Below, piece by piece: positions 7,818 to 32,399 of a DNA stretch of 64,000 bases (its first letter is position 1; every line of letters starts with the position of its first letter). The notes below the pieces were generated by a model. The model had not been told where the DNA came from. It worked only from the letters and a program-made list of their open reading frames with translations, and searched no databases. Both the position numbers and the translations under genes were made by a program. The stretch is from Peptococcaceae bacterium (lineage in GTDB: Bacteria; Bacillota; Desulfitobacteriia; Desulfitobacteriales; Syntrophobotulaceae): contig JAAYUV010000025.1 in assembly GCA_012517475.1 (NCBI GenBank), forward strand, positions 1 to 64,000. Reading direction: 5' to 3'.

Positions 7818-8960
7818 ATGAAAGACCGGGACATTATGACCCAGTTAGCCCAGATTGGAAACAGAAACGATTCAACCGGAGCCATTAGTTTCCCTATTTA
7901 TTATTCTGCAACTTTTGCCCACCCCGAACTCGGAAAGAGTACCGGATTTGATTATTCAAGGTCAGGAAATCCCACCCGGAAGGTCCTGGAAGATGCCATC
8001 GCAGGGCTCGAAAAAGGATGTAAGGGATACGCTTTCTCTTCGGGGATGGCAGCCATCACAACGCTTCTATCGCTTTTTCAGAACGGGGATCATTTAATTG
8101 TAACGGAAGATTCTTACGGAGGCACCTATCGCCTTTTGGACAAAATATTTAAGGAATTCGGCATTTCCGTCTCATATGTGGACACCAGCTGGACTGAGCT
8201 GATCCGTAATGCCATCACCCCTAAAACCAAAGCCATTTTTTGCGAAACTCCTACCAATCCGTTAATGAAAATAGCTGACATCCAAAGTATCTGCGAATTG
8301 GCCAAATCCAGGAATATCATTACGATTATTGATAATACCTTTTTAACCCCTTATTACCAGCGGCCATTGGAACTGGGTGCAGATATTGTCGTTCACAGCG
8401 CCACTAAATTCATTGGCGGGCATAATGACGTGGTGGCCGGCCTGGTTGCTGTGAAAGGGGAAAAATTGGCAGAGCGGGTAGGTTTTCTTCAAAATGCATT
8501 AGGGGCAACTTTGGGACCTCAAGATTCCTGGTTACTGATCAGGGGGTTAAAAACACTCGGACTCCGTTTGGACTGCCAGCAGCGCAATGCCTTAACGATT
8601 GCCCGTTGGCTGGAAAACAATCCGCACGTAGACACGGTATATTACCCAGGATTACCAAATCATCCCGGATATGCTACCCAGCAGAGTCAGGCTTCAGGAT
8701 TTGGAGCCATCATTTCCTTCACCCTCAAGGATAAAAAACAAATTCCAAGCATCTTGAAAAACGTGGAAATAATTTCCTTTGCTGAAAGCCTTGGCGGTGT
8801 GGAAAGCTTAATCACTTATCCTTTTATTCAGACCCATGCCGATATTCCTGCCGATATCAGGGAGCAATTAGGAATCGACGACTGTCTCCTTCGTATCTCC
8901 GTTGGTATAGAGAACATAGAGGACTTAATCAGTGACCTTAACCAAGCTTTCAATAAATAG
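7818..8960 (+). CDS. metI: Cystathionine gamma-synthase / O-acetylhomoserine thiolyase, MetI-type
   Basis: This 380-aa PLP enzyme of the Cys/Met metabolism family joins O-acetylhomoserine with cysteine (or sulfide) on the way to methionine. The PLP lysine is in VVHSATKFIGG, with YSRSGNPTR and SSGMAA upstream. The C-terminal FAESLGGVESLITYP block and SVGIE arginine motif are intact. It resembles Bacillus subtilis MetI more than MetC. The start follows an AGGTGG site. It is the first gene of the S-box operon and is followed 52 bases later by its paralogue, an arrangement like metI-metC. Confidence 0.88.
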   Translation: MKDRDIMTQLAQIGNRNDSTGAISFPIYYSATFAHPELGKSTGFDYSRSGNPTRKVLEDAIAGLEKGCKGYAFSSGMAAITTLLSLFQNGDHLIVTEDSYGGTYRLLDKIFKEFGISVSYVDTSWTELIRNAITPKTKAIFCETPTNPLMKIADIQSICELAKSRNIITIIDNTFLTPYYQRPLELGADIVVHSATKFIGGHNDVVAGLVAVKGEKLAERVGFLQNALGATLGPQDSWLLIRGLKTLGLRLDCQQRNALTIARWLENNPHVDTVYYPGLPNHPGYATQQSQASGFGAIISFTLKDKKQIPSILKNVEIISFAESLGGVESLITYPFIQTHADIPADIREQLGIDDCLLRISVGIENIEDLISDLNQAFNK

Positions 8961-9012
8961 CGAATTCACTCATGCCCCTTAAAAATTATATTTTTATCGA
9001 GGAGTTTATGAA

Positions 9013-10161
9013 ATGAAAGATGATTATTCCGGTATAAATACACTTTTCCTGCATGCAGCCGGTGACCAAGATCCGGCGACCGGGGCTTTGAGTACCCCGA
9101 TCTATCAGGTATCCACTTTCCACAGGGATGCCGATAACCCATCTGATTATGAATATTCGCGGTCTGCCAACCCAACCAGGGATGTTCTGGAAGAATACAT
9201 CGCCAAGGTGGAAGGAGGAATTCGCGGATACGCCTTTTCTTCCGGAATGGCCGCCATCAGTACAATCCTTTTTATCTTCTTCCCCGGAGATCATATCCTT
9301 GCCGGAAAAGATATTTATGGAGGAAGCTACCGTATCCTTACCCAAGTATTTAAGCAATGGCAGTTAGAAGTAGACTTTGTGGATATCACAGATATAGAAA
9401 CGGTCAAAAAAGCCGTCAAACCCAATACCAAAGCCATATTTTTTGAAATTGTCTCTAACCCCTTTCAAAAGATCGCAGATTTAAAAAGTATCCTTGCTAT
9501 TTGTCGTGAAAAAGGACTGCTTTCAATTATCGATAACACTTTCCTGCCTCCGTATTATTGCCGCCCGCTGGAATTAGGTGCGGATATCGTCCTGCACAGT
9601 GCAACCAAGTTTCTCAATGGGCACAGTGATGTTGTTGCCGGTGTTGCAGCGGCTAAGGACCCAGTGCTTGCTAAAAAAATCGGCTTTATGCAGAATGCTG
9701 TTGGGGCAGTCTTAGGCCCGCAGGATTCATGGCTCCTGCTCAGAGGATTAAAAACTTTGGGCGTGCGTATGGAGAGACAGGAAAAAAGCGCCCAAAAAAT
9801 AGCGCCTTGGCTTCTGGAACAGTCATGGGTGAAAAAAGTATACTATCCGGGACTCCCCGGTCATCCCGGAAAAACATTGTTAGAGAATATTTCCACCGGA
9901 TACGGGGCCATTATCACCTTTGAAGTGACCACTTCTGCAGTAAAAAATAACCTTATGCAAAAGCTTTCCCTTCCCGCTGTAGCAGTAAGCTTGGGCGCTG
10001 TGGAAAGTATCCTGACCCACCCGGCGACGATGTCGCATGCTTCCATGCCTAAAGCCGTCAGAGAAGAACTCGGGATCTGCGATAATCTCTTCAGGCTGTC
10101 AGTCGGGCTGGAAGATCCCGAGGACCTAGTGAAAGATTTTTTAACTGCAGTGGAGTCTTGA
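9013..10161 (+). CDS. metC: Cystathionine beta-lyase, MetC-type
   Basis: This 382-aa paralogue of the preceding gene has all family blocks: YSRSANPTR, SSGMAA, HSATKFLNGH with the PLP lysine, SLGAVESILTHP and LSVGLE. By order and similarity to the Bacillus MetC/YjcJ type it most likely cleaves cystathionine to homocysteine, pyruvate and ammonia. The ATG at 9013 has GAGGAG 8 bases upstream. A nearer out-of-frame ATG at 9009 stops at once. Exact substrate choice within this family cannot be settled from sequence alone. Confidence 0.85.
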   Translation: MKDDYSGINTLFLHAAGDQDPATGALSTPIYQVSTFHRDADNPSDYEYSRSANPTRDVLEEYIAKVEGGIRGYAFSSGMAAISTILFIFFPGDHILAGKDIYGGSYRILTQVFKQWQLEVDFVDITDIETVKKAVKPNTKAIFFEIVSNPFQKIADLKSILAICREKGLLSIIDNTFLPPYYCRPLELGADIVLHSATKFLNGHSDVVAGVAAAKDPVLAKKIGFMQNAVGAVLGPQDSWLLLRGLKTLGVRMERQEKSAQKIAPWLLEQSWVKKVYYPGLPGHPGKTLLENISTGYGAIITFEVTTSAVKNNLMQKLSLPAVAVSLGAVESILTHPATMSHASMPKAVREELGICDNLFRLSVGLEDPEDLVKDFLTAVES

Positions 10162-15599: not shown

Positions 15600-15731
15600 A
15601 GCTTTTCCCTTCTTTCAGTAATCACTCTGTACCAATAATATACCACAAAACCTAGGTCTTTTATATATTTTACCCAGTGAAGATTAGATTGAAATCCTAT
15701 AGCCAAAATTTATCATCAAATTTCCCCGTTT

Positions 15732-16358
15732 TCAAAACTTTTCCTCATTAATCAGCATGTTATGTGTTTCATCACAAAAAGGGGTATTTTTGGTACACCC
15801 GCACCTGCACAAACAGTACCGTTCCTGGTCTGCCGGTGGATGGGTGTCCCCGCAGAGTTCAATGCCCCCTTCAACGTTGAATGGTCCGTTCTCGGCGATC
15901 ACAATTTTCGTTTCCCGCTGCAGGGTTTCATGTTGCTTTCCATGTAGCACATACTTTAAAGCCCCTGAAGGACAATCATCAATGGTCTTCATAATCTGTT
16001 GGGTTTTTGCGCCATTTGCATTGATCCAGGGCCTTCTGTTTAGATTAAATACCGAAGGAAGCTGATTTAAACATACCGCAGAATGGGAACATACGCTTAA
16101 ATCGAAGTATATTGTGATCTCTCTTCCGTAGTATTCTTTTATTTCTCCCGGGAAATCTTCTTTGGACTGATTGAGAAATCCTGACTCAATATGCTTACCG
16201 TCACAATATGGCTTGGTTTTCGACTTGCCGCACCGGCATAATGCCATGATTGGTTTGGTGGGCAGGATTTCTCCCTCGCAGTCTTCCAATATATCTACGT
16301 CCTGGACGATGTATGGACTGGATTTGGAAAAAATGATTTGCGGTTTCCTTGTGTTCAT
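15732..16358 (-). CDS. CDGSH iron-sulfur protein with a central ferredoxin-like domain
   Basis: This 208-aa protein has an N-terminal CDGSH motif CRCGKSKTKPYCDGKH and a C-terminal one CRCGCTKNTPFCDETH, each a three-Cys-one-His [2Fe-2S] site. Between them (~residues 75-145) lies a divergent ferredoxin-like segment with CSHSAVC and DDCPSGALKY. Such triple-cluster proteins occur in bacteria but their redox partner is unknown. The ATG follows GAGGAG. It is monocistronic, between the Rrf2 promoter and a DUF2325 gene. Confidence 0.85.
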   Translation of the reverse strand: MNTRKPQIIFSKSSPYIVQDVDILEDCEGEILPTKPIMALCRCGKSKTKPYCDGKHIESGFLNQSKEDFPGEIKEYYGREITIYFDLSVCSHSAVCLNQLPSVFNLNRRPWINANGAKTQQIMKTIDDCPSGALKYVLHGKQHETLQRETKIVIAENGPFNVEGGIELCGDTHPPADQERYCLCRCGCTKNTPFCDETHNMLINEEKF

Positions 16359-16420
16359 GAATTCCGCTCCTCTATCGTTTATATTTTTATCCTAAAAATA
16401 AACGATGAAGGATAGGATAA

Positions 16421-16717
16421 TCAAGCACAGGTCACTTGCTCTTCAAATTGCTTTAGTATTTCCCCAAGCGAGGTAGCGCTGCTGGAGTGACTTCTGAGCA
16501 ATGGTATATTTCTGCTTTTTGCAGCTTTCACAGCGGCATGTACCATTACATGAGATACCGTACTGGTAAAAATAACGATGCAATCCGGACGTCCAATCAC
16601 TTTTTCCAAATTCACAGGCATTTGTGTATATACTTTTATCCCGTAGCCTTGTTTGGCACAGATTCCTTTATACTCCTGGTGCATCCGGTCATGGCCTCCT
16701 ATCAGTACAATCTTCAT
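16421..16717 (-). CDS. DUF2325 domain protein
   Basis: This 98-aa protein has a Rossmann-like start MKIVLIGGHDRM, a central DCIVIFTSTVSH and the SHSSSATSL segment. These are the usual blocks of the small DUF2325 family common in anaerobic Firmicutes, often near metal or redox genes. The start has GGAG about 10 bases upstream. Function unknown. Confidence 0.8.
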   Translation of the reverse strand: MKIVLIGGHDRMHQEYKGICAKQGYGIKVYTQMPVNLEKVIGRPDCIVIFTSTVSHVMVHAAVKAAKSRNIPLLRSHSSSATSLGEILKQFEEQVTCA

Positions 16718-16828
16718 TTATGTAACACTCCTCTCTTGGCTTATCAGTATAATAAAAGCTTCTTAATCCCTAGTATATCTATGGTATTTATGTAGTTTAA
16801 GTGTATCACTTTTTTGTTTTGGTTGTCA

Positions 16829-16861
16829 ATAAAAAATAAGAGCCCGTTTAAGTACGAGCCC
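16829..16861 (-). terminator. Terminator after the 26-codon gene
   Basis: On the minus strand GGGCTCGT and ACGGGCTC (16861-16854 and 16847-16840) form an eight-pair stem with two G-U pairs, followed by TTATTTTTTATT. It lies 12 bases after the stop of the small gene and also shows a short T-run on the other strand. Confidence 0.75.
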
Positions 16862-16873
16862 TTTTTGGGGAGT

Positions 16874-16954
16874 TTACCGTCTTCCCCAGGACCAGATTAT
16901 GCAGTCTTCTTTGCAGTGCGCGGTTTCACGCAGCATCCAGTGTTTTGTAAACAT
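16874..16954 (-). CDS. Candidate 26-aa Cys/Trp-containing peptide
   Basis: Reading from ATG at 16954 the peptide is MFTKHWMLRETAHC then KEDCIIWSWGRR. It contains two cysteines in HCKEDC and three tryptophans. A near-perfect GAAAGGAGGT lies 7 bases upstream, and a terminator follows the stop. It is preceded by a GC-rich structured leader and lies just downstream of the sulfhydrylase-MarR gene. It could be a regulatory leader peptide, a redox or metal peptide or a precursor peptide. I do not recognise it. Translation is supported only by the ribosome site and layout. Confidence 0.55.
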   Translation of the reverse strand: MFTKHWMLRETAHCKEDCIIWSWGRR

Positions 16955-16978
16955 ATCGACACCTCCTTTCGCGCTTCT

Positions 16979-17024
16979 TGCCATCCATGGCACTGCGGCA
17001 CTAGGCCGTCCTGGCCGTCGCCGC
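16979..17024 (-). ncRNA. Structured GC-rich leader of the small peptide gene
   Basis: On the minus strand an outer stem GCGGC/GCCGC (17024-17020 with 16999-16995) encloses GGCC/GGCC (17016-17013 with 17007-17004). It is followed by a second hairpin TGCCA/TGGCA (16992-16979) just before the ribosome site. This block is much more GC-rich than its AT-rich flanks. It may be a cis-acting RNA or just a stable leader. It does not match any riboswitch class I know. Confidence 0.4.
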
Positions 17025-17054
17025 TCCCGGACATCCTGTGAAAAATCGAAATGC

Positions 17055-17067
17055 TTGTATCATACAA
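17055..17067. promoter_or_regulatory. Palindrome TTGTATCATACAA, possible MarR operator
   Basis: A 13-bp perfect palindrome with a one-base centre lies 18 bases after the stop of the MarR-containing gene. On the minus strand it overlaps a possible -10 (TATGAT) feeding the peptide gene. MarR proteins often bind TTGTATACAA-like palindromes, so this is a reasonable candidate operator. That is an inference. Confidence 0.45.
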
Positions 17068-17084
17068 CTATTTATATAAATTTT

Positions 17085-17531
17085 TTAACAGCATTTATGG
17101 TCGTTCAATAAATTTTTAATCGCTGTTAAAAAAAGTCTTACACTGTTATAAACTTCCTTGTGTTTATCCTCTGGGATTTGCGAAGAAAGTTTTTCTAAGA
17201 AGCTATTTAGGCGTTCCCATAGCTCTTCTTTTATTTTTCTTCCGCTATCTGTCAGTACCAGATTGATCGCTCTGCAGTCAAATTCCGATCTTTGCTTTTT
17301 CACCAGCCCCTGCTGCACAAGTGGTTCAACCAGCCTTGTGGAAGTACTCTTCTCAACAGACAGTAAGTCATGCAAATCTGAAAGCTGTAAAGTTCCGTTC
17401 TTTCCGATCAGATCCAAAATGTAAAACTGGGTAAAAGTAATACCCCCACCAAGGATGGCATCCTGTTGGCAGCACCTTGATGCTTTTGTCATTTCGGCAA
17501 GAAGGGAGAGCAGTTCACGGTTATTAGTCAC
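17085..17531 (-). CDS. Internal MarR-family regulator frame with its own ribosome site
   Basis: Inside the fusion gene AAAGGAG (17546-17540) lies 8 bases before GTG at 17531. This gives a 148-aa MarR protein beginning MTNNRELLSLLAEM. It is in frame with the upstream enzyme, so both a fusion and a free MarR could be made. The winged helix spans about residues 35-105. Cys pairs RCC and KCC at both ends could allow thiol or persulfide sensing (inference). This start explains the fusion as deletion between two formerly adjacent genes. Confidence 0.65.
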   Translation of the reverse strand: MTNNRELLSLLAEMTKASRCCQQDAILGGGITFTQFYILDLIGKNGTLQLSDLHDLLSVEKSTSTRLVEPLVQQGLVKKQRSEFDCRAINLVLTDSGRKIKEELWERLNSFLEKLSSQIPEDKHKEVYNSVRLFLTAIKNLLNDHKCC

Positions 17532-18638
17532 AACAATTACTCCTTTAGTTGTATGAATGACCAGAGTTCTCGAATCTCCTATGTTTGCAAGGTTGGAAGC
17601 ATACTGCAGGTGATTAATCACCTTGAACGCGTTTTCTTTTGACCCGACTCTTATGGTAAGAATTGCTCCATACCTATCGTTGAACTGCTCTTTAGCAATT
17701 CTGTAATAATTGTTATCCCTAAGGCCGGGATAATTGACTGAAAGAACTTTTCCGTTTCTTTTAAGGCTCAAGGCCAGTTGTATAGCGTTTTCACACAATT
17801 TTTCCATCCTTAAGCCCAAAGTTTCCAGACCGATACTGTTTAAATAGGCATTAAAAGGAGATATGCAAGGGCCTAAATTTCTAAATAAGCTGTTCCTGAG
17901 TTTAGCAAGATAAACAAAAGCACCAAATTTTTTGAACTCCTTCAAGGACGTAAATTTATCGAAGTCCCATTTGAACTTGCCGCTGTCTATAATGACTCCT
18001 CCGATGGAATTTCCGCTCCCATTAATATATTTGGATGTGGAATGGACGACAAGGTCCGCCCCTAGTTTAATTGGCTTTACCAAATATGGGGTAGTAACGG
18101 TATTATCCACAACAAGCGGTATTCCTTTAGAATGAGCCAATTCAGCCAAAGCGCGGAGGTCCGGAACATCCAGTTTCGGATTGCCAATGGTTTCAACAAA
18201 TAGGAGTCTGGTTTTTTCATTAATCGCCTTGTCAAAGGTTTCAATATCATTGTCCTGAACGTATCTGGCTTTGATTCCATAGGCTTCGAGATCGTGGAAA
18301 AGAGAGCAGGTGCCTCCGAAAATGCCGCTTCCTGCTACAATTTCTTCTCCCTGTTTAACAATATTCATAATGGCAAGCGCGACAGCAGCCATTCCGGAGG
18401 CGCAGGCCACAGCGCCTACCCCTCCTTCCAGAAAGGCAAGCCGTCTTTCAAAAGAGTCAATCGTTGGATTGTTAATTCTGGTATAAACATAACCCGGGGC
18501 ATTCCCTTTGAAGATACTTTCCAATTCCTCAGCAGTCTTGTGTTGAAAAGATGTGGACTGATAAATCGGTGCTCCCGTTGCACCGGTTCTTTCATCTCCG
18601 GAAAAATTGCCATGAAGCAGAGAAGTATTAAATCTCAT
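17085..18638 (-). CDS. In-frame fusion: C-truncated O-acetylhomoserine sulfhydrylase + MarR regulator
   Basis: The 517-aa frame starts as a MetY-type PLP enzyme: GAPIYQSTSF, YTRINNPT, CASGMAA, and the PLP lysine in HSTSKYINGSGN. It runs through NIGDSRTLVIH at about residue 365. The normal tail of ~60 residues, which holds the substrate-carboxylate arginine in the LRLSVGIE-like motif, is missing. From about residue 370 it is a complete MarR winged-helix protein. Its start overlaps the tusA-like stop (ATGA) at the end of the sulfate operon. It may be a dead or altered enzyme, a regulator with an enzyme-derived sensor, or the scar of a deletion. The PLP fold and MarR parts are clear. Confidence 0.85.
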   Translation of the reverse strand: MRFNTSLLHGNFSGDERTGATGAPIYQSTSFQHKTAEELESIFKGNAPGYVYTRINNPTIDSFERRLAFLEGGVGAVACASGMAAVALAIMNIVKQGEEIVAGSGIFGGTCSLFHDLEAYGIKARYVQDNDIETFDKAINEKTRLLFVETIGNPKLDVPDLRALAELAHSKGIPLVVDNTVTTPYLVKPIKLGADLVVHSTSKYINGSGNSIGGVIIDSGKFKWDFDKFTSLKEFKKFGAFVYLAKLRNSLFRNLGPCISPFNAYLNSIGLETLGLRMEKLCENAIQLALSLKRNGKVLSVNYPGLRDNNYYRIAKEQFNDRYGAILTIRVGSKENAFKVINHLQYASNLANIGDSRTLVIHTTKGVIVVTNNRELLSLLAEMTKASRCCQQDAILGGGITFTQFYILDLIGKNGTLQLSDLHDLLSVEKSTSTRLVEPLVQQGLVKKQRSEFDCRAINLVLTDSGRKIKEELWERLNSFLEKLSSQIPEDKHKEVYNSVRLFLTAIKNLLNDHKCC

Positions 18639-18883
18639 GTCAGACCATCCTTTTCCACGAGAACAGTATAGGTCCCATCACCATTATTCTCAACCCGGAT
18701 CACCTTATGATCTTCATCCTTTAAACTCCTGGGAACATTCTGGATAGGTTCTCCTTCATTCATTCTTATCTCCAGGATCTGCCCCGGCTCAAGTTCTTCG
18801 ATCGCAACCTTTACTTTGACAAAAGTAACCGGGCATACCACATCCGTAATATCTACAAAGGCATCTGCTTTTCCCTTATTCAA
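18635..18883 (-). CDS. TusA-like sulfur-carrier family protein, operon copy
   Basis: This 82-aa protein has the conserved cysteine in DITDVVCPVTFVKVKVAIEEL. TusA proteins carry sulfur as a persulfide on the Cys of a CPxP motif. Here it is CPVT, as in related sub-families. It overlaps the sulfite reductase gene by 8 bases and the sulfhydrylase start by 4, so translation is coupled. It likely handles sulfide or persulfide between sulfite reductase and the thiocarboxylate carrier (inference). Confidence 0.85.
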   Translation of the reverse strand: MNKGKADAFVDITDVVCPVTFVKVKVAIEELEPGQILEIRMNEGEPIQNVPRSLKDEDHKVIRVENNGDGTYTVLVEKDGLT

Positions 18884-19742
18884 TGTTCAAAACCTCCAAC
18901 TCTTTCTCAAACAGTTCCCAGCCAACCCTATCCAGGGTATTCCTGAACCTTTCGCTCTGTTTCCCGTATTTTTGGAAAAACGCCAGGGTCAAATCAATGA
19001 CTTTATAAAGGCTCTCCTTAGAAGAAACAATCGGAAGGATTTGTTTTCCTACAGCAATTCTGTTGCCAAATAATCCTCCGAAAGAAAGGATAAACCCCTT
19101 TTCTCCCTTCCAGGCTTCGACAGGGCAAGCCTTGACACACTTCCCGCAGTAATTGCATTGCGTTTCATTCAAACTAACAGTATCTCCACTTACAATCTCA
19201 ATTGCTTTGACAGGACAAACCGCTTGGCATAAACCGCAATAATTGCAGACGTCCGCCTGCCAGGCAGGCTTTAATCCGCCTTTAATTCCCAGATCGTTTT
19301 CCTCAGCTTTTAAGCAATTATTACAGCAACCCGTTACCCCGATTTTGAATTTATGCGGAAGCTCCCTGGCAAAATACCTGTTGTCCAATTCCTTGGCTAA
19401 AGAAGTCGTATCGATCAGGCCGCTGGGACAAATGTTTTCTCCCTGGCAGGCTGTGATTGTCCTTACTCTGGGTCCGCAGGCCCCGGGCTGCAATCCAACC
19501 TCACTTAACTCTTTTTTCACAGCATCAATATCCTGAAGTTTGACAAACGGGATTTCTATCCCCTGCCTGGAGGTCATATGAATATAACCTTGTCCATACT
19601 TTTCAGCAATCTCGGTCACCTTTTGCAGTTGTTCAGCCCGAATCTGACCGCCCACAATTCTAAGCCGGAGTGAAAAGCGGTCCTTCTGGACTTGCCTCAT
19701 AAAACCGCCTTTTTTTAATTCCTTGTAATCTACTTCCGCCAT
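18876..19742 (-). CDS. Siroheme sulfite reductase with inserted 4Fe-4S ferredoxin domain
   Basis: The 288-aa protein has an N-terminal sulfite/nitrite reductase half-domain. It is followed by siroheme-cluster ligands ACQGENICPSG and GVTGCCNNCLKAEE, and a two-cluster ferredoxin insert (CNYCGLCQAVCP, CNYCGKCVKACP). This is the small single-subunit type related to AsrC/Fsr rather than DsrAB. In this operon it should reduce sulfite from APS reductase to sulfide. The ATG follows GGGGAGG and starts 2 bases after the JAMM gene. Confidence 0.9.
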   Translation of the reverse strand: MAEVDYKELKKGGFMRQVQKDRFSLRLRIVGGQIRAEQLQKVTEIAEKYGQGYIHMTSRQGIEIPFVKLQDIDAVKKELSEVGLQPGACGPRVRTITACQGENICPSGLIDTTSLAKELDNRYFARELPHKFKIGVTGCCNNCLKAEENDLGIKGGLKPAWQADVCNYCGLCQAVCPVKAIEIVSGDTVSLNETQCNYCGKCVKACPVEAWKGEKGFILSFGGLFGNRIAVGKQILPIVSSKESLYKVIDLTLAFFQKYGKQSERFRNTLDRVGWELFEKELEVLNIE

Positions 19743-19744
19743 GA

Positions 19745-20173
19745 TTAATCCTCCCCTTGTACCAGAATTTGTTCCTCATCAATATTCTCCCGGCGTATCC
19801 TGAAACCCTTTAATACCGGATTATCTTTGTCCATTAAGGATAAGATCAAATAACTGATTTCCGGATCATACGCCAGCCTTTTATCTTCTTCGGAAGGTCT
19901 TGAAGGGGATTCAGGATGGCTATGAAAATTTCCAAGGATTATCCATCCGCTCTTCCGCATGTCTTTCACAGCAGCAAATTGCTCTTTGGGGTCCATGGAA
20001 AAATGTTCAGGGCTTTGATCGGTATTGGTAAGAAGGTAGACTTTTTCCACAACCTTCATATCATCATCGATTTTTCCGCCTAAAAGTCCGCAGGCTTCAT
20101 TGGGGAGAGCACGGAGAGAATGACTCAGGATTTCTTCATATTGTTGTTTCTTCAGTACAATCAAAGCAATCAC
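19745..20173 (-). CDS. JAMM (M67) metallopeptidase, HcyD/Mec-type
   Basis: The 142-aa protein has the JAMM zinc site: Glu in NEACGLLGG, then HSHPESPSRPSEED giving H-S-H-P and the distal S-x-x-D. In actinobacteria (Mec+) and Wolinella (HcyD) such peptidases act on ThiS-like carrier proteins. They cut an amino acid from the carrier C-terminus or release the product. The carrier here ends GGGTL and would need trimming. The start is GTG at 20173. A TTG four codons in is also possible, as both have only weak ribosome sites. Confidence 0.88.
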   Translation of the reverse strand: MIALIVLKKQQYEEILSHSLRALPNEACGLLGGKIDDDMKVVEKVYLLTNTDQSPEHFSMDPKEQFAAVKDMRKSGWIILGNFHSHPESPSRPSEEDKRLAYDPEISYLILSLMDKDNPVLKGFRIRRENIDEEQILVQGED

Positions 20174-20205
20174 CCGCTATTATTATTTTTTTGACGCCCC
20201 GGATT

Positions 20206-21018
20206 CTAATGCTTTACATCACATGCAGCCTGTTCATAGTCTATCAGTTCTTTGATCGTCGCATTTTCTCCGCAAACCTGGCATTTTTCGTTATTTGACA
20301 GTTTCACCTTCCTGAATTCCATCAGCAGGGCATCATAAGTCAAAAGACTACCTGTAAGCAATTCCCCGATACCAAGTACATATTTAATGGCTTCGGTTGC
20401 CTGGATCGTTCCGATGATCCCGCCCATAACCCCTAATACTCCTGCCTGTTTACAAGTAGGCACAGCATCCGGCGGGGGAGGGCTTTGAAATATACACCGG
20501 TAACAAGGCCCTTGTCCGGGCACATAGGTCATGGTCTGCCCAAAGAACCGGATAATGCCGGCATGGGAAAAAGGTTTTTTCGTCAGAACGCAGGCATCAT
20601 TAATAAGAAATTTAGCAGGGAAATTATCCGTCCCATCGATAATAAAATCATACTCCCGGTCGTGAATGATGTCCTTCATATTGGCCGAACTAACCCATTC
20701 GTGGTAGGTGACGACATCCACATCCGGGTTCATTTCCCGGATGGTTTCCTTTCCCGACAGCACTTTGGGCTTGCCGACATCCTTGGTGAGATGAATGATC
20801 TGTCTTTGCAGATTGGAGAGTTCTACTGCGTCGAAATCTACCAGTCCGATAGTTCCTATTCCTGCTGCTGCCAAAAACATCGCTGCGGGTGCACCGAGAC
20901 CGCCGGTACCGATAACCAGAACCTTAGATTCGAGCAGCTTATTTTGTCCCTTTACGCCAACTTCTTTAAGAATAATGTGCCTTGAGTACCTTTCCAACTG
21001 TTCATTCGTAAAACTCAT
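20206..21018 (-). CDS. ThiF/MoeB/HesA-family adenylyltransferase, HcyF-type
   Basis: This 270-aa E1-like enzyme has the nucleotide loop GTGGLGAPAA at residues ~36-45. DGTDNFPAKF is the second ATP-site block, CYRC and CQVC are the zinc cysteines, and PTCKQAGVLG is the crossover-loop cysteine. It has no rhodanese domain. It would adenylate the C-terminal glycine of the carrier encoded just upstream (ATGA overlap) to prepare thiocarboxylate formation. Confidence 0.92.
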   Translation of the reverse strand: MSFTNEQLERYSRHIILKEVGVKGQNKLLESKVLVIGTGGLGAPAAMFLAAAGIGTIGLVDFDAVELSNLQRQIIHLTKDVGKPKVLSGKETIREMNPDVDVVTYHEWVSSANMKDIIHDREYDFIIDGTDNFPAKFLINDACVLTKKPFSHAGIIRFFGQTMTYVPGQGPCYRCIFQSPPPPDAVPTCKQAGVLGVMGGIIGTIQATEAIKYVLGIGELLTGSLLTYDALLMEFRKVKLSNNEKCQVCGENATIKELIDYEQAACDVKH

Positions 21019-21224
21019 AATGTGCCTCCTCCCATGAAGTAAAGGAATTCTACCTCATCTCCCTCAACTACAATCAGATTTTCGAAATCTTCTCTATCTA
21101 TCAGTTCCTCATTGATTTGCACGGTTACATATTGGGGCATTTCAACGTTTAGCGTTTGCAATAGTTCGTTGACACTCAACTCTTTTTCAAGGGTTTCTTT
21201 TTTTCCGTTTACAGTGATCTCCAT
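21015..21224 (-). CDS. ThiS/MoaD-family sulfur carrier ending GGGTL, HcyS-type
   Basis: The 69-aa beta-grasp protein starts MEITVNGKKETL and ends YFMGGGTL. Active carriers end in GG, so the extra TL (or GTL) must be removed before activation. A JAMM peptidase in the operon could do it. Context argues for homocysteine synthesis rather than thiamine, since no thi gene is nearby. It is co-translated with the E1-like gene and starts about 80 bases after cysN. Confidence 0.9.
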   Translation of the reverse strand: MEITVNGKKETLEKELSVNELLQTLNVEMPQYVTVQINEELIDREDFENLIVVEGDEVEFLYFMGGGTL

Positions 21225-21302
21225 ATCTCATAACCTCCAATTTAATCGTTGCTTTTTACTATTTGATCAGATATCTTACTCTTTAGAAAATAATCTATTA
21301 TT

Positions 21303-23099
21303 TTAAATGTTATAATCAAAGATCACTTCCTGTTTTTTCAAGAGATCACAGACTCTGTCCACTGCTCCATCCGGTTCGATGCTGGCATCGGGACGAAAGG
21401 TGTTAAAAGGAGTGTCTCCAATGTTAACAATCAAGATATCATTGGGTTGGTTCAACAATTTAAGTTTCTCCGCTTCATAGTCATCCAGATTAAATACCGA
21501 TGTAATGAAGATCTGCCCTGAATCGGTAAATATTCTTGCCAGTTCTCCAATCTGCCTGATATGCTCATCCCTTCCTTCATAACCGGAAACAAGTTCAGAA
21601 GCAAGACCAAGAGAAAGACTCGAAACTCCAAGATAATACGCCTTAAACTTTTTATCAAAGAGTATCTTTTCCAACCTCCTCCCAATATCCTGTATAGCGT
21701 TTTCATTCCCTTCAGTACCTGAGGTAATCACAATGAATTTTGATTTATGACCGTAAAATGTTTCTCGTTGCGAAGAAGGGATTAACCCTTTATCCCATAA
21801 ATACTCCCTGTCTCTTACATGTTCCACCAAAGTATGCTCAGAATCGGCTATTCCCTCCAGGATAATACCGCCGCCGGATATTTCATAGTTGTCAACGATA
21901 ACAAATCTTCCGGTCAATTCAATATCGACTATGGTGTCATAAGCAATCGGCTTTACGGTTTCAAAAATACATTCTGCTACATCATGTCTTTCCACTTGAT
22001 CCTTAAATGTGTCTATATTTAATTCCGCTGCATCAATAATATTTAAGATGTCAACGAGCTTCACCCCGATTCTCATGGCGCCTATTTTGAGTTTATAGCT
22101 TTTATGTTTAACCAGGGGGGCTTTACCCACCCAGAAAATATTGGCTTTAAACCGGGAGCTTAATATTGGCTGTTTTTCGCCGGCCTTCACCAATAATTCT
22201 CCGGGTTTAATATAAATTTGAGTCTGCAGTGTTAATCCTATGGCTTCTTCAGCATAAGCAGTGTTGTGCGGGCTAACGTTAAATCGCTCAACGCTTTTTA
22301 CCACGCTTCTTTTATTTGAAGGCAGGAAGACGACCTCTTCTCCGCAGCTGATTTGGCCGCTTAAAATGGTTCCCGCAATGATCCGGCGATCATCACCCTG
22401 TTCCGTAAACTTATAAATATCCTGAACAGGCATACGGAAGGGCATTTCCTGATTTTGTTTTTTATTGGCAAATCCGTCTAATTGCTCCAAGACGGTTGGC
22501 CCGTCATACCATAAAGTATGGGGCGACTTAAGAGCAATATTGTCTCCATGAAAGGCACTGATGGGGATGAAATTAACCGGGTTGATATTTACTTTATGAA
22601 GAAATTCACTGAATTCTGAACGGATCGAATGAAACACATCCTTATCAAAATCCACAAGGTCCATTTTATTAACCAATACTACTACCTGGCGGATACCCAG
22701 CATGGAAACAATGTGCCCATGCCTTTTGGAATTTTCCCGGATACCTTCTTTGGCATCAATAACCAGAAGGGCGGCTTCTGCCCTTGAAGCCCCTGTTACC
22801 ATATTTTTGAGGAATTCGATATGCCCCGGGGCATCAATGATAATGTAATTTCTTTTGTTTGTTTTAAAGAAGCTCCTGGCGGTATCAATGGTGATTCCCT
22901 GTGCCTGTTCATCTTTTAAAGCATCCAGAAGAAAAGCATATTCAAAAGGTTTGGAATTTTTTCGGCAGTATTCTTTTACCGACTCCAGCTTCCCCTCAGG
23001 AAGGGAACCGGTATCGGCCAGAAGTCTCCCGATCACGGTACTCTTCCCATGATCAACATGTCCGACGATGACGATATTCATCTGTTCTCTGGTTTCCAT
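21303..23099 (-). CDS. cysN: Sulfate adenylyltransferase subunit CysN with degenerate APS-kinase-like C-terminal domain
   Basis: This 598-aa protein is first an EF-Tu-like GTPase: P-loop GHVDHGKST at residues ~13-21, DAPGH, NKMD, then two beta-barrels to about residue 430. It drives APS synthesis by CysD. The remainder looks like CysC, but the site where GLSGAGKST is expected reads [10 protein letters not shown], lacking the Walker lysine. The APS-kinase part therefore cannot bind ATP normally. PAPS is not needed, as the operon encodes an APS reductase. The gene begins 1 base after the cysD stop. Confidence 0.92.
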
Positions 23100-23100
23100 T

Positions 23101-23982
23101 TTACATATACCCGCCTCTTCTTAAAGTTTCGAGTCCTCCGCCATCATCTTTATCCTGAGCCCTTCCGGACCTTTCCGCAATATTGGCAAACTTTCCGCTT
23201 TTCAACTCTTCAATGATTTCTCCCACATTTTTCGATGTGGAATCAACCGGAAAAGTACAAGGATAGCATCCCAGAGATCTGTACCGTTTGCCGTTGCCCT
23301 GATCAAAGTAAAGGGACGTAACCGGGATATTTTCTCTCTCGATATATTCCCATACATTCAATTCCGTCCAGTCCAATAAGGGATGGATTCGAATATGGGT
23401 GCCCGGCGCAAAATCGGTTTTGAACTGGTTCCAGAATTCAGGAGGTTGGTCTCCTACATCCCAATCGTTTTCCTTATCCCTGGGCGAGAAGTATCTTTCC
23501 TTGGAACGGCTTCCCTCTTCATCAGCCCTTACTCCTACAATCACTCCGGTAAATTTTTCTTTTTTCGGATCGACTTTGTATTTTCCATTGTTCAAGTCCA
23601 TGATATACCGGGTCCACTCTCCCGAGAGCGTATTTTTCAGCGCTTCGGTTTTTAAAGCCTGGCAGCAGCTGATACGGTCGGCATTCCCATCAGGAAATGT
23701 TTTTTTCTCTTGCAAAGCATAGCTGTTTTCGCCATAAATCATGGTCAGTTTCCACTTCAATGCAAGTTCATCCCGGTACTTGATCATTTCCGGTATTTTA
23801 TAGTGAGTATCAATGTGCACCAGCGGTATGGGTACATGTCCGAAAAATGCTTTCCTGGCCAGCCATAAAAGTACGGTGCTGTCTTTCCCTATGGACCAGA
23901 GCATGCATATATTTTTAAATTCTCTGTACGCTTCTCTTAAGATATAGACACTTTGAGCTTCAAGTTTATCCAAATGATCCAT
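23101..23982 (-). CDS. cysD: Sulfate adenylyltransferase subunit 2 CysD
   Basis: This 293-aa PP-loop enzyme makes APS from ATP and sulfate, with energy from the CysN GTPase. Blocks [14 protein letters not shown] (PP-loop), [22 protein letters not shown] and RSLGCYPCT are typical. The start is placed at 23982 ([10 protein letters not shown]), which has GGAGGG 7 bases upstream. A longer frame reaching 24039 would include that site. Confidence 0.95.
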
Positions 23983-24054
23983 CGATTTTCCCTCCATCTC
24001 TGCTGTCATTTTCTTTCTGCCAGGGCTTATTTTCAGCAATGTATTTTATACTCT

Positions 24055-24768
24055 TCATGGTTTACTGAGATGAAGCCCGCACTCTTTTTTATCGGGGCTT
24101 TCCCACCACCATCTCCCGCTGCGTACATCTTCTCCCGGCTTCACCGCCCTGGTGCACGGCTCGCAGCCGATACTGCGGAACCCGGTATTGTACAGGTTAC
24201 TGTAAGGCACATTTTCCTTTTTGATGTATTCCCAGACTTGTTCCTCATTCCAAAAAGCAAGCGGGTTAATTTTATATATGGAATGATTCCCATCCCATTC
24301 AACCAGGTGAATTTCTTCACGGGTTGAAGACTGTTCCCTTCTCAAACCGCAGATCCAAGCGTCCACAGTGTGTAATACTCTTTGTAAAGGCTTAACTTTT
24401 CTCAGTTCGCAGCACTTTTTCCTGAGTTCCACACTATCATAAAAAGAATTGGGTCCGTATTCTGAAACCAGGTACTCTAAATCTTTGCTTTCCGGAGCAT
24501 AGACTTCATAATGAAACTCATATCTTCTCATGGTTCGCTCCATGAGGTCATAGGTCTTTTGAAAATGCCTTCCGGTATCAATAAAGAAAATTCTGGCCTT
24601 GGAGTTGATTTTCAGAAGCATATCGGTAAGAATCTGGTCTTCGATGGAAAGACTGGAAGCGAGCGCAACCTTGGATGACCCGATTTTCTCCAGTACATAT
24701 TCCATCAACTTCTCCGGATCTTCCTGTGTAAATTTTCTATTCAATGTGTCGAGATCAAAACCCACCAT
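24055..24768 (-). CDS. cysH: APS reductase, CysH family, [4Fe-4S] type
   Basis: This 237-aa protein reduces adenylyl sulfate to sulfite. It has the cysteine pattern of APS rather than PAPS enzymes: CC in RKKCCELRKV and CxxC in SIGCEPCTRAV bind a [4Fe-4S] cluster, and the C-terminal ECGLH holds the catalytic cysteine. The ATG follows GGAGG. It explains why APS kinase is dispensable here. Confidence 0.94.
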   Translation of the reverse strand: MVGFDLDTLNRKFTQEDPEKLMEYVLEKIGSSKVALASSLSIEDQILTDMLLKINSKARIFFIDTGRHFQKTYDLMERTMRRYEFHYEVYAPESKDLEYLVSEYGPNSFYDSVELRKKCCELRKVKPLQRVLHTVDAWICGLRREQSSTREEIHLVEWDGNHSIYKINPLAFWNEEQVWEYIKKENVPYSNLYNTGFRSIGCEPCTRAVKPGEDVRSGRWWWESPDKKECGLHLSKP

Positions 24769-24821
24769 TTCTTTTTCCTCCTTCTCTTTTATTGATCTTG
24801 CTCATACTCTTTTCCGCTTTG

Positions 24822-25079
24822 TTAACTTCTTTCATGTTGATGCTCTCTATCTAACAAACTTTCCACAACCAAGGCAGCGGAACCGATTGAAATAGCATTT
24901 TCGTGAAAGCTGCCGCCCCTGCTGAAAACAATATTTTTCCCCGTATTCCAATAACTTTTTTTCTTTGCCGTTTCAACACTCTCGTCATAGAAAAGCTTGG
25001 AATACCTGATAACCGGTCCGCTCAAAATAACAATATTAGGATTTAAGAGTTGTATAAAATTTGCCAGCCCCGTACCCAT
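24822..25079 (-). pseudogene. C-terminal fragment of a ROK-family protein
   Basis: The 85 codons match only the last part of ROK sugar kinases/regulators: GLANFIQLLNPNIVILSGPV, then NAISIGSAALV. A normal ROK protein has about 300 residues. The nucleotide site is gone, and no ribosome site precedes the ATG, which lies 6 bases after the cysA stop. A deletion probably removed most of the gene between cysA and cysH. Confidence 0.75.
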
Positions 25080-25085
25080 GATTAC

Positions 25086-26159
25086 TCAAATTACATAATC
25101 TTCAGGTATAAATACCTTGAAATCTCTCGGTTTCACATAGACCTTTTGTTTTTCCTTTAGATCCAGTTTTCTATAAACCTCTTTGCTGATCTCTGCTTCA
25201 ATGTAATCGCCATTTTCCAGTCTTTTCAGTTCAAGATTGACAATAGGGCCCACCGCCCGGATAAATAAAATCTCGGCTTCAATATCATCTCTTCCTCCGG
25301 CTTCCAGACTAATGTCAATATCATGAGGACGGAAAAAGCTGACAATCTCTTTATTCTTAGTTCCCGCATGCTCAGGTACATCTAATTTCAACGAACCAAG
25401 TTCAACCTTGCCATTATGCACCCTTCCGTGAAACAGGTTAAAATTTCCGAGAAAATGATAAACAAATGGATTAACCGGATTATCATAAACTTCTTCGGGT
25501 GTACCGATTTGTTCTATCTTGCCTTGATTGAGAATAACAATCCGATCGGCTACATCCAGGGCTTCCTCTTGATCATGGGTTACAAAAACACTGGTAATGG
25601 GGTATTCGTCATGCAGTTTCCGGAGCCATCTGCGCAGATCTTTTCTGACCTTAGCATCCAAGGCCCCAAAAGGTTCATCCAGCAATAAAACTCTCGGTTC
25701 GACCGCCAAGGCCCTGGCCAGAGCAATTCTTTGGCGCTGCCCTCCGGAAAGCTGGGCGGGATAACGTTTGGCCAATTCCTCCATCTTTACCAGCGACAAA
25801 AGTTCTTGTACTTTTTGCTGAATCGCTTCTTTGCTGGGCCTATGCTTGGAAGGTCTCACTTTTAAGCCAAACGCAATGTTTTCAAAAACTGTCATATGCT
25901 TAAAAAGCGCATAATGCTGGAAGACAAATCCTACCTTACGGTCTTGGGCACTTTTTTCGGTGTTGTCTTCCCCGTCAAAAATGATGTTCCCCTGGTCTGG
26001 GGTTTCAAGCCCGGCAATAATTCTCAAAAGAGTCGTTTTCCCCGAACCTGAGGGCCCCAATAAAGCAACCAGTTCTCCGGTATTGATGGTTAAATTGATA
26101 TCTTTCAGTGCCTGGAAAGAGTCAAAGGTTTTTGTCACATTGGATATTTCTATACTCAT
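25086..26159 (-). CDS. cysA: Sulfate/thiosulfate ABC transporter ATPase CysA
   Basis: This 357-aa ATPase has Walker [11 protein letters not shown]-loop FQHYALF, signature LSGGQRQR, Walker [12 protein letters not shown] and switch [10 protein letters not shown]-terminal TOBE-like domain follows, with the [10 protein letters not shown] block found in CysA. It powers import by CysT/CysW. The ATG follows GGAGG. It is followed by the broken ROK gene. Confidence 0.95.
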
Positions 26160-26213
26160 AGCCAGTCCTCCATTTCAGGTTACGCACATACCCCTTCAGA
26201 GATTTTCTTACGT

Positions 26214-27098
26214 TTAGGTATTTTCTTGTTTATTTATTTTCCATTCAGAAATATTTTTAATAACCAGATTCAAAATCGCTATGATTGTTAAAAGGGAAGC
26301 TACAGCAAAGGCAGCCGAAAACTTGTATTCGTTATAGAGAATTTCCACATGGAGAGGAAGCGTATTGGTCAACCCCCTGATATGCCCGGAGACAACGGAA
26401 ACTGCGCCAAATTCACCGGCAGCCCTCGCTACTGTCAGGACAACGCCATATAAGAGAGCCCATTTAATATTGGGCAGCGTAATAAACCAGAAAGTTTTCC
26501 AGCCACTGGCTCCCAAGGTAAGTGCGGCCTCTTCTTCCGCAGTTCCCTGAGCTTCCATCAAGGGAATAAGTTCCCGGGCGACGAAAGGAAGGGTAACAAA
26601 TATGGTCGCAAGAATAATACCGGGAGGCGCGAAAATAATCTTTATTCCCCAGGCATTTAAAAGAGGCGCCGTAACCCCATGGGTTGTACTGAAAAGCAAT
26701 ACGAAAATCAAACCGGCAACAACCGGGGATATGGCAAAGGGCAGGTCAATAAAAGTAACCAATAAATTCTTGCCTTTAAACTTAAATTTTGCTACCGCCC
26801 AGGCGACAGTAAGACCAAAAGCAGTATTAATCACGACCGCAAATCCCATGGTAATAAGCGTAAGCCTCACAGCCTTTAAGGCAATTCGATCTGTAATCGA
26901 AGCAATATATACCCCGGCTCCTTGTTCAAACGCTTTTAGAAAAACAGAAATAAGCGGAATGATGAGTATTATGATAAAAACAAACAGGACAGCCCCGATC
27001 AGAAGAATTTCTACGGCTTTCGAGCTGTTTCTCCCTGATGAATGATTCAGTTTCTTTTGATTATCTTGGATAATCCTGCCATGAGTTGAACCGGCCAT
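26214..27098 (-). CDS. cysW: Sulfate ABC transporter permease CysW
   Basis: This 294-aa membrane protein has six predicted segments. The cytoplasmic loop EEAALTLGASGWKTFWFITLP contacts CysA. The N-terminus has a ~40-residue polar extension before the first helix. It starts 12 bases after cysT with GGAGGG upstream. Order cysT-cysW-cysA identifies it as the CysW partner. Confidence 0.93.
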   Translation of the reverse strand: MAGSTHGRIIQDNQKKLNHSSGRNSSKAVEILLIGAVLFVFIIILIIPLISVFLKAFEQGAGVYIASITDRIALKAVRLTLITMGFAVVINTAFGLTVAWAVAKFKFKGKNLLVTFIDLPFAISPVVAGLIFVLLFSTTHGVTAPLLNAWGIKIIFAPPGIILATIFVTLPFVARELIPLMEAQGTAEEEAALTLGASGWKTFWFITLPNIKWALLYGVVLTVARAAGEFGAVSVVSGHIRGLTNTLPLHVEILYNEYKFSAAFAVASLLTIIAILNLVIKNISEWKINKQENT

Positions 27099-27110
27099 TT
27101 TACCCTCCTA

Positions 27111-27959
27111 TTACGCCTTATCTCTGCTGCTTGCCCACCACTGGGTTAAATTGATAAACAGCAGCATCAGAAATGAAATTACCAGCATCACCGCCGCGAT
27201 CGCTGTGCCCCCGGCATAATCATATTGTTCAAGCTTTGTCCGGATTAACAAAGGAGTTATTTCCGTTTGCATCGGCATATTGCCCGAAATAAATACAACA
27301 GATCCGTATTCCCCTAATGCCCGGGCAAACGCAAGTGCAAACCCGGTGATGATCGCAGGAAGAAGTGTCGGAACAATTATTTTATAAAAAGTTTGAAACC
27401 TTGTTGCGCCAAGGCAAGCGGCCGCTTCTTCTGCTTCAAGGTCAATGCTTTGCAAAACGGGCTGGACCGTTCTAACGACAAATGGGAAACTGATAAATAT
27501 TAATGCTAATGTAATCCCCAAAGGGGTGTAAGATATTTTTATTCCCAAAGGGGCAAAAAGCCTGCCTATCCAACCATTTTCCGCATAGAGAGTGGTGAGG
27601 GAGATACCGGCCACAGCAGTGGGTAAAGCAAAAGGCAAATCGATCAGGCCATCAATAATTCTTCGTCCGGGAAAAGAATATCTTTCCAGAACCCAGGCAA
27701 AAAGAACCCCAAAAAAGACATTGACAGAAGCCGCTAAAAAAGAAGTGGTGAAGGATACTTGTAAGGAGGCCAACACTCTTTCAGTAGAAACAGCTTCCCA
27801 GAACGTTTTTAAACCCATGCTTGAACTATTCAGAAAAACCATCGAAATAGGGATTAATACCAGCAAACTGAGGTACAGCAAAGAAAACCCCATTGTTATT
27901 CCGAATCCGGGTATGACACTTTTATGCTTTAGTCTGAATGGTTTACCTATCGAGTTCAT
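27111..27959 (-). CDS. cysT: Sulfate ABC transporter permease CysT (CysU)
   Basis: This 282-aa permease has six membrane helices. The coupling loop [21 protein letters not shown] and the [12 protein letters not shown] block are typical of CysT. It is preceded by a stable hairpin that may lower its expression relative to the binding protein. The ATG follows GAGGTGG. Confidence 0.93.
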
Positions 27960-27987
27960 GAATCCACCTCATTAAAGAACTTTCAAC

Positions 27988-28050
27988 GAAAATAGGCGGA
28001 ACGGTTCCTGGTTTCTTGTCCGCTAAAACTCGGAACCGTTCCTATTTAAT
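27988..28050 (-). terminator. Stable hairpin between the binding protein and cysT genes
   Basis: AATAGG plus GGAACGGTTCC (27991-28008) pairs with GGAACCGTTCCTATT (28032-28046). On the minus strand it lies just after the binding-protein stop and has only short T-runs. It may be a partial terminator or an mRNA-end stabiliser giving more binding protein than permease. Confidence 0.55.
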
Positions 28051-28061
28051 TCTATTAAGTT

Positions 28062-29141
28062 TTATTTTTTTGTATAAATCTGGTCGAATACCCCTCCGTC
28101 AGCAAAATGCTCCTGTTGGGCCTTATTCCAGCCGCCAAAAACATCCTGAATGGTAAAGAGCTTTACTTGAGTGAATTGGGAAGCATACTTTTTCGCAATC
28201 GTCTCGTTTCTGGGCCTGTAAAAGTTTTTGGCTGCGATTTCCTGACCTTCGTCACTGTAGAGATATTGCAGGTAAGCTTCAGCAACTTGACGGGTTCCTT
28301 TTTTATCGACAACCGAATCTACAACCGCGACCGGAGGCTCTGCCAAAATACTGATGGAAGGAACGACTATTTCAAAATTATCTTTATTTTTCAGTTCTTT
28401 GGTTGCCAGGAATGCTTCGTTTTCCCAGGAGATCAAGACATCGCCGAGACCTCGTTCGGTAAAGGTTGTTAAGGAATCGCGGGCTCCTGAATCCAATACG
28501 GGTGCATTTTTATAAATCGCTTTTACAAATTCCTTGGCTTTTTCAGCATCGTTATTATTCTTATTCAGAGCATAACCCCAAGCTGCAAGGTAATTCCAAC
28601 GAGCACCGCCAGAAGTTTTGGGATTCGGAGTAATGACTGACACGCCAGGCTTCGCCAGGTCATTCCAATCCTTGATGTTTTTGGGATTTCCCTTTCTAAC
28701 AAGAAAAACGATGGTTGATGTATAAGGAGTAGAATTATTGGCCAAACGTTTCTGCCAATCCTTGTTGATCAATTCTTTATTCTTGTTGATGGAATCTATA
28801 TCATAAGCTAAAGCCAGTGTTACGACATCCGCTTCTAATCCGTCCAGTACAGCCCTGGCTTGCTTCCCTGATCCGCCGTGTGATTGTTCCACGGTTACAT
28901 CCTGTCCGGTTTTTGCCTTCCAATATTTAGCGAAGGCCGCATTGTATTCCTGGTATAATTCACGTGTTGGATCGTATGATACGTTAAGCAGGGTCACAGG
29001 CTTTGCGGATCCTGTATTCGCGGCAGTTCCCTGGTTTTGAGCTCCGCATCCTGCCAATGAAACAATAAGCACGATAATGAGCGCCGCTCTCATGATGTTT
29101 AGAAAAACTCTTTTCTTGTTACTATTTTGGGGACTGATCAT
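28062..29141 (-). CDS. sbp: Sulfate-binding lipoprotein of the ABC transporter
   Basis: This 359-aa protein has a basic N-terminus, a hydrophobic signal and lipobox SLAGC, so it should be a lipoprotein. The body shows SBP-family blocks: [51 protein letters not shown] and RPRNETI. It delivers sulfate (or thiosulfate) to CysTWA. It is the first gene of the sulfate operon, with AGGAGG before the ATG. Confidence 0.94.
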
Positions 29142-29160
29142 TTTTCTTTCCTCCTCTAAA

Positions 29161-29182
29161 CCATAGTACAGTATTCCTATGG
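29161..29182. promoter_or_regulatory. Palindromic candidate operator in the sulfate-operon leader
   Basis: CCATAG (29161-29166) and CTATGG (29177-29182) flank a 10-base centre. On the minus strand it lies about 10-30 bases past the predicted start point and contains ATAGGAATACT, a string also present in the met S-box leader. It is well placed to block elongation. Confidence 0.45.
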
Positions 29183-29197
29183 GTTTTATTGTAGTTT

Positions 29198-29226
29198 ATT
29201 GTAACGGGCACTTTTTACCATGTCAA
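29198..29226 (-). promoter_or_regulatory. Promoter of the sulfate assimilation operon
   Basis: On the minus strand TTGACA (29226-29221), 17 bases, TACAAT (29203-29198). It is a strong sigma-A promoter. With no clear internal terminator it could serve genes down to 17085. Confidence 0.75.
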
Positions 29227-29392
29227 TAGATTTTTGAAAAAAAATATATTGCAATCTCTATGTGTTTACTGCAGATTGTTTCCAAGATGATTTTTATTGC
29301 CTAACATGTAAAAAATAAGAAAAAGGACTGATTTTTACTCACCCTTTTCCTTTTATAAAATAAGCCGTATAAAATTTTTGTGAGGCTCTCTT

Positions 29393-30277
29393 TTATTTAC
29401 CTATTACCTTTTCGAGGTCAGAGTAAAGAGGAGCGTGCACAGTAATCGGTGTTCCTGTTTTAGGATGGATAAAAGTAACCGATTCGGCATGCAGGGCCTG
29501 ACGAGCTATTTTAGGAGAACTCTTTCCATACATGGTATCCCCGATAATCGGGTGTCCAATATGAGCCATATGAACACGAATCTGGTGTGTCCGGCCTGTT
29601 TCAAGCTCCAGTTCCACTAAAGACATATCCGGAAGGAATTGAATCACCTTATAATGGGTAACAGCTCTTTCTCCCTGTTCATGAACGGTGCGGCGGTTGG
29701 GTAGGGTAGGATGCTTTCCGATCGGAAAATCCAGCGTACCCGTTTGCGGTTCAATATTACCGCTAATCACAGTCAGATAGGTTCGCTTAAAAACCCCCTG
29801 CAGCATTTGTTGTTCAAGCATGGACTGGGTCAGCGCATTTTTGGCAAATACCACACAGCCCGAAGTATCACGATCAAGACGATGCAGCGGGCGAATGGTA
29901 AAAACATCTCCCCGTTGTTGAAAATAATAAGCCAAATAATTGGCCAATGTTCCCTGAAAGGTATGTCCTGCCGGATGCACCAGCATTTTCGGCGGCTTGT
30001 TTAACACAATGATCAAAGGATCTTCAAATAAAACTTCAACCGGCCCTTCCTGCGGCACAACACCATAAGATTGGTCCTCCGGGCTGAGAATGCTTAAGAC
30101 ATCTCCTTCTTTTATCTTTCTTTGAAGGAAAACGGTTTTTTTATTCAGCAGGATTCCTTTTTTTCTGGTAAGTTTTTGAATAGCTCTTCCTGAATACTTT
30201 AAAACTTGCTTGAGATATTCCTCAACAGTTAAGCCACTATGCTGATTTTCAACAGGAAATGTATGATATGATTTCAT
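29393..30277 (-). CDS. RluA-family pseudouridine synthase
   Basis: This 294-aa protein has an N-terminal S4-like RNA-binding part and a catalytic domain. The catalytic Asp is in RPLHRLDRDTSG, and LETGRTHQIRVHMAHIGHPI is the family block. It converts uridine to pseudouridine in rRNA or tRNA. The exact target is not readable. The start at 30277 has GAAGGA just upstream. The longer frame to 30301 has none. Confidence 0.92.
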   Translation of the reverse strand: MKSYHTFPVENQHSGLTVEEYLKQVLKYSGRAIQKLTRKKGILLNKKTVFLQRKIKEGDVLSILSPEDQSYGVVPQEGPVEVLFEDPLIIVLNKPPKMLVHPAGHTFQGTLANYLAYYFQQRGDVFTIRPLHRLDRDTSGCVVFAKNALTQSMLEQQMLQGVFKRTYLTVISGNIEPQTGTLDFPIGKHPTLPNRRTVHEQGERAVTHYKVIQFLPDMSLVELELETGRTHQIRVHMAHIGHPIIGDTMYGKSSPKIARQALHAESVTFIHPKTGTPITVHAPLYSDLEKVIGK

Positions 30278-31208: not shown

Positions 31209-31258
31209 AAAAAACAGTGATTCGTTTCTATCTCACATATATCTCACACAAGAATTGC

Positions 31259-32331: not shown

Positions 32332-32360
32332 AAATAGTCCTCCATTTATTAAAAAATAAA

Positions 32361-32397: not shown

Positions 32398-32399
32398 CG

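Follow-up and report, generated by a model that had tools for sequence, protein, structure and literature searches.

An O-acetylhomoserine sulfhydrylase gene (metY) that runs in frame into a complete marR raises the question of whether the locus encodes a new kind of regulator or records an accidental loss of DNA between two genes. The fusion lies in a 64,000-nucleotide stretch of Peptococcaceae DNA (the window), and our answer is that it most likely arose by accident as the genome decayed, and does not represent a new kind of regulator. A reading made from the sequence alone had described, without giving a strand, a continuous 517-codon frame, and we found that frame open without an internal stop on the minus strand, from 18638 to 17085. 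It is laid out as MetY residues 1–362, seven junction codons (TTKGVIV, between LVIH and a GTG) and a complete 148-aa MarR (Table 1). Pfam places Cys_Met_Meta_PP at aa 5–365 of the fused ORF, matching only profile positions 2–339 of 381, and a MarR winged helix-turn-helix (wHTH) at aa 399–457; the MarR part scores 38.9 bits with PF12802 and 37.8 bits with PF01047, both over the cut-off, as for a full wHTH. The AAAGGAG and GTG that the same reading had placed at the joint are present at 17546–17540 and 17531 with an 8-nt spacing, the GTG being codon 370 of the fused ORF. In five separate marR orthologues an ATG occupies the aligned position, which makes this internal GTG the start codon inherited from the ancestral marR and not a chance occurrence.

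Table 1. Features of the metY–marR region, in window coordinates
Feature	Coordinates	Strand	Basis
Fused ORF metY'::marR, 517 aa	17085..18638	minus	Frame and Pfam
Truncated MetY (O-acetylhomoserine sulfhydrylase), residues 1–362	17553..18638	minus	Pfam, NCBIfam, orthologue alignment
Joint, codons ACA ACT AAA GGA GTA ATT GTT	17532..17552	minus	From right half of marR operator, Shine-Dalgarno (SD) and spacer
AAAGGAG, ancestral marR SD	17540..17546	minus	AAGGAG at the aligned position in five separate marR genes
Complete MarR with intact wHTH, 148 aa counted from GTG	17085..17531	minus	68–72% identity to separate orthologues
Putative surviving MarR-type operator GTTGTATGATACAAG	17054..17068	minus	Identical to site downstream of marR in UBA6116 (G003)
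Promoter-like TTAAAA-18-TATGAT, overlapped by the operator, would drive mini-gene	17059..17088	minus	Consensus match only
Mini-gene MFTKHWMLRETAHCKEDCIIWSWGRR (stop)	16874..16954	minus	First gene past marR in the window and in marR-bearing relatives
Covarying H-type pseudoknot, overlaps mini-gene end	16866..16892	minus	Covariation
Remaining genes of the apparent sulfur operon (protein-thiocarboxylate type), upstream of metY	18635..21224	minus	Same order in L046 and L127
ThiS-like carrier, 69 aa, ending GGGTL	21015..21224	minus	Sequence
ThiF	20206..21018	minus	Sequence
JAMM	19745..20173	minus	Sequence
Sulfite-reductase-like	18876..19742	minus	Sequence
TusA	18635..18883	minus	Sequence

The MetY part retains what is needed to recognize its family, namely the PLP lysine K203 (STSK), YTR 52–54 and DNT 178–180, and by these cofactor motifs and a Pfam score of 330 bits it belongs to the Cys/Met PLP family. 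Its end is indeed lost after LVIH (aa 359–362), as had been noted from the sequence, though the loss amounts to 47 residues relative to the 409-aa orthologues and not to about 60. The C-terminal domain is thereby incomplete, and the NCBIfam OAH/OAS sulfhydrylase model (TIGR01326) gives 407.6 bits against a cut-off of 495.1, its match stopping at position 376 of 418. The missing residues include the HPAST Ser and the LIRISVG Arg, which are invariant in eight full-length MetY orthologues and also conserved in solved relatives. In cystathionine gamma-lyase (CGL; the human enzyme in PMC6073527, see also PMC10160035), the substrate carboxylate is held by Arg375 and Ser340; going by motif, we read the MetY Arg and Ser as the probable counterparts of these two. 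Because the missing segment holds the carboxylate-binding Arg and the conserved Ser, the truncated MetY should be inactive, and catalysis by it appears very unlikely. On both the location of the substrate-carboxylate arginine and the inactivity of the enzyme, then, our results side with the sequence-only reading. An AlphaFold2 model of the fusion (15 aligned sequences; pLDDT 57.8, pTM 0.42) is too poor to judge whether MarR replaces the missing MetY strands.

Synonymous sites are saturated in the comparison with the nearest relative, so we judged constraint on otherwise invariant columns instead of Ka/Ks. Changes were found in 5 of 189 such columns in MetY 1–362 and in 11 of 420 in the operon neighbours (P=1.0), and the dN of 0.132 for this fragment falls beside values of 0.09–0.21 for the other operon genes. 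Given the saturation, even a small neutral part of the branch would bring many more changes to MetY than these. Selection on the fragment is thus not relaxed relative to the operon neighbours, and either it was cut short recently or it remains under constraint.

The ThiS-like carrier, together with ThiF, JAMM, the sulfite-reductase-like protein and TusA, makes the genes upstream of metY look like a homocysteine operon of the protein-thiocarboxylate type. In a Syntrophobotulus-like locus (L046), the same operon ends in a 409-aa metY of the same subtype, 79% identical over residues 1–362, with a clear terminator of hairpin and T-run beyond its stop codon, and separate full metY genes of 409–411 aa occur at seven further loci (L038, L039, L052–L056). 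For orientation among the genomes compared, we take G007 to be Syntrophobotulus glycolicus and G002 to be Dehalobacter. A family member, G010, has the same operon at 73–91% identity to that of the window, but there tusA is the last gene (L127, 8570–8818) and no metY of this type follows, so that absence of this metY is tolerated. The window's genome also encodes two other full-length MetY proteins (G000:C98, 426 aa, and C12, 429 aa) and a MetB/MetC-type (transsulfuration) pair at 7818–10161, behind a SAM riboswitch. Taken with the G010 operon, these genes mean that loss of the enzyme does not equal loss of homocysteine synthesis. A 13.7-kb block of the window that includes the sulfur operon, marR and the mini-gene next to it (15672–29392) is missing from the same-genus genome G001 (L129), where the flanking genes are joined directly.

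Five separate marR orthologues, from four Dehalobacter-like genomes and UBA6116 (G003), share about 70% identity with the MarR part and have free frames of 157–164 aa. Directly before its SD, each carries the perfect palindrome GTTGTATNATACAAC, with TTGAC upstream and surroundings that resemble a promoter; in the Dehalobacter-like genomes and UBA6116 it overlaps marR's own promoter, and MarR in these relatives would also repress itself. An order-level search of 74 genomes found this MarR in 6 of them and fused in 1; in a phylum sample of 398 genomes, 5 had a MarR at E<=1e-20, again fused in 1. The MarR frame is 530 aa long in the fused genome as opposed to 157–164 aa in all others. The fusion therefore has a single known assembly as its source, being absent from every other genome of the 74 of the order and 398 of the phylum, and a literature search for MetY–MarR fusions returned nothing relevant. 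The sequence-only reading had held that separate, full genes in relatives would mark a deletion scar and a shared fusion a selected regulator; metY and marR proved separate and complete there, with no second fusion, which falls on the side of the scar. Otherwise invariant columns are changed more often in MarR (20 of 105) than in its neighbours larE and cymR (22 of 277; P=0.003), with few of the changes in the winged helix, a pattern that may reflect a MarR that is drifting yet functional or one that is adapting to a new setting.

At base resolution, metY sequence ending in CTGGTCATTCAT runs into the right half of the marR palindrome (CATACAACTAAAGGAG). To the left of the joint the window aligns with metY (GGAGATTCGAGAACTCTGGTCATTCAT in the window, GGGGATGTCCGGACTCTGGTCATTCAT in L046) and is identical to the L046 gene over ACTCTGGTCATTCAT; to the right it tracks the marR leader from CATACAACTAA on, its CATACAACTAAAGGAG aligning with TATCATACAACTAAGGAG of G023. 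The two sides overlap in TCAT, four bases at most. The alignments indicate that what was lost at the joint is the last 47 codons of metY with its stop and terminator and, from marR, the promoter together with the operator's left half. The distance from operator to start is 16 nt in the window, compared with 12, 14 or 15 nt in relatives. In three Dehalobacter-like genomes the marR leader holds an in-frame TAA, and the unbroken frame at the joint is therefore a chance outcome. The lost C-terminal piece of metY was not found elsewhere in the genome except inside the intact paralogues, which fits a deletion and not an inversion.

We consider it very probable that metY'::marR is a deletion scar. 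The ancestor would have carried a cysD cysN thiS thiF jamm sir tusA metY operon, with a marR under its own control downstream of it. A deletion at the shared TCAT would then have taken the end of metY, the intervening DNA, and the promoter and half-operator of marR, leaving by chance a joint in frame. The MetY part would be unable to bind substrate and, with its C-terminal domain incomplete, would not be an active sulfhydrylase, homocysteine synthesis presumably being carried by the two other full-length MetY proteins and the transsulfuration pair. MarR would still be made, mainly from the retained SD and GTG, along with some 517-aa read-through fusion, and the sequence-only reading's suggestion of both a free and a fused MarR is in this sense plausible. 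Transcription of marR would now be under the sulfur operon with autorepression gone, so that a repressor that once controlled itself would have come under a biosynthetic operon, and the surviving operator would still let MarR repress the promoter of the mini-gene that comes next. In the 64-kb window, 2.7 near-matches to the palindrome with <=3 mismatches are expected and a single one is not rare; the site at 17054–17068 draws its weight from conservation of the same position in G003. A regulon search of the whole genome with the palindrome showed no enrichment over a reversed control. No single genome showed a metY of this type immediately preceding an intact marR, so the order before the deletion and the size of the deletion are reconstructed. 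Against the scar, an unbroken and conserved metY frame is equally expected if the truncated domain is still useful. The locus nonetheless offers a clear case of recent gene fusion by deletion, in which relatives still preserve the ancestral operator, SD, start and terminator. Its annotation should name neither a functional homocysteine synthase nor a novel class of PLP regulator.

A variant compatible with the deletion scar, and one to which we give a small but real chance, is that decay has gone further and the locus is a compound pseudogene whose MarR is also non-functional. The change of the start from ATG to GTG, the lost promoter and the faster evolution of MarR than of its neighbours all point this way, against which the MarR frame, its recognition helix and the putative downstream operator and promoter are intact.

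It is very unlikely that an assembly or library artefact joined two places that are apart in the organism. The assembly is a draft of 115 contigs, the nearest relatives differ by side (Syntrophobotulus-like for the operon, UBA6116/Dehalobacter-like for marR), and a repeat present at least 40 times in the genome lies at 16972–17020, 0.5 kb from the joint. However, the joint itself holds no repeat, and an overlap of <=4 bp does not give an assembler enough sequence to make a join. G003 shares with the window the gene order marR, mini-gene, DUF2325 (decayed), cymR, larE, so the nearby repeat was not misjoined; further out, the genes flanking the block described above on its two sides (metA-larE-cymR; 29393–39168) are contiguous and collinear in G001. 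The two sides are similar in composition, and there is no second copy of metY, marR or the lost metY end.

Highly improbable, in our view, is a selected fusion in which the MetY domain, inactive but able to bind PLP or some sulfur metabolite, governs the MarR joined to it, as an analogue of MocR-type regulators in reversed order. Retention of K203 and the other cofactor motifs, an open and well-conserved frame, and MarR residue changes that leave the recognition helix untouched would suit such a protein. Yet the substrate-binding residues are the very ones missing, marR keeps an independent SD and start, its domain evolves faster than larE and cymR, and the fusion is confined to a single assembly; the conservation of metY' equals that of the intact operon genes and so may predate the fusion. 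The earlier suggestion that the enzyme had been turned into a sensor finds nothing in its favour beyond the open frame and the kept PLP motifs. Least credible of all is a functional 517-aa protein, caught at birth, in which a dead PLP-binding MetY relays the sulfur or homocysteine state to MarR.

The putative MarR-type site fronts a widespread mini-gene that is, to our minds, a more interesting lead than the fusion. The mini-gene encodes a free-standing, conserved 18-aa peptide, MFTKHWMLRETAHCKEGC, with synonymous codon changes and an SD in front (window; L085–L095, L101–L126), and ends near TAG or TGA, with no TAA in the copies read. An H-type pseudoknot, GUCC-NGGGNA-NGAC-nnUAAACU-NCCC, overlaps or comes after its end and covaries, with 95% of cells paired versus 33–46% when slid and 11 double changes. 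The mini-gene occurs in 35 of 398 Bacillota genomes, in varied neighbourhoods and in up to three copies in the window's genome. Rfam gave no match in this region for the window copy at E<=5 and none that was credible for seven other loci, and a literature search for the peptide found no paper with it; the mini-gene is possibly an undescribed peptide/RNA family. Its leader contains the repeat at 16972–17020, a GC-rich element of about 50 bp (GCCATCCATGGCACTGCGGCACTAGGCCGTCCTGGCC...) that is also many-copied in five relatives, and several contigs of the assembly start or stop inside it.

Three known systems bear comparison with this locus. The first is the MetY of protein-thiocarboxylate operons, as in Wolinella succinogenes (Krishnamoorthy & Begley 2011, as cited in reference 34 of PMC5764234), which is alike in residues 1–362 and in its ThiS, ThiF, JAMM, sulfite-reductase-like and TusA genes; the window copy differs in lacking the last 47 residues with the conserved Ser and Arg, and cannot be filed as a working MetY. 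The second is the MarR family (PF01047/PF12802) of the Dehalobacter/UBA6116 group, which has the same wHTH and flanking helices, start, SD, downstream mini-gene and putative operator, whereas the window marR lacks its own promoter and half of its upstream operator and stands behind metY. The third is MocR/GabR (GntR wHTH with a fold-type I PLP domain; PMC6677901), which likewise combines a PLP domain and a wHTH in one polypeptide. There the GntR wHTH is N-terminal and the aminotransferase-like domain is full, while in the window the PLP part is N-terminal and truncated, the C-terminal wHTH is of the MarR type, and the arrangement occurs in one genome.
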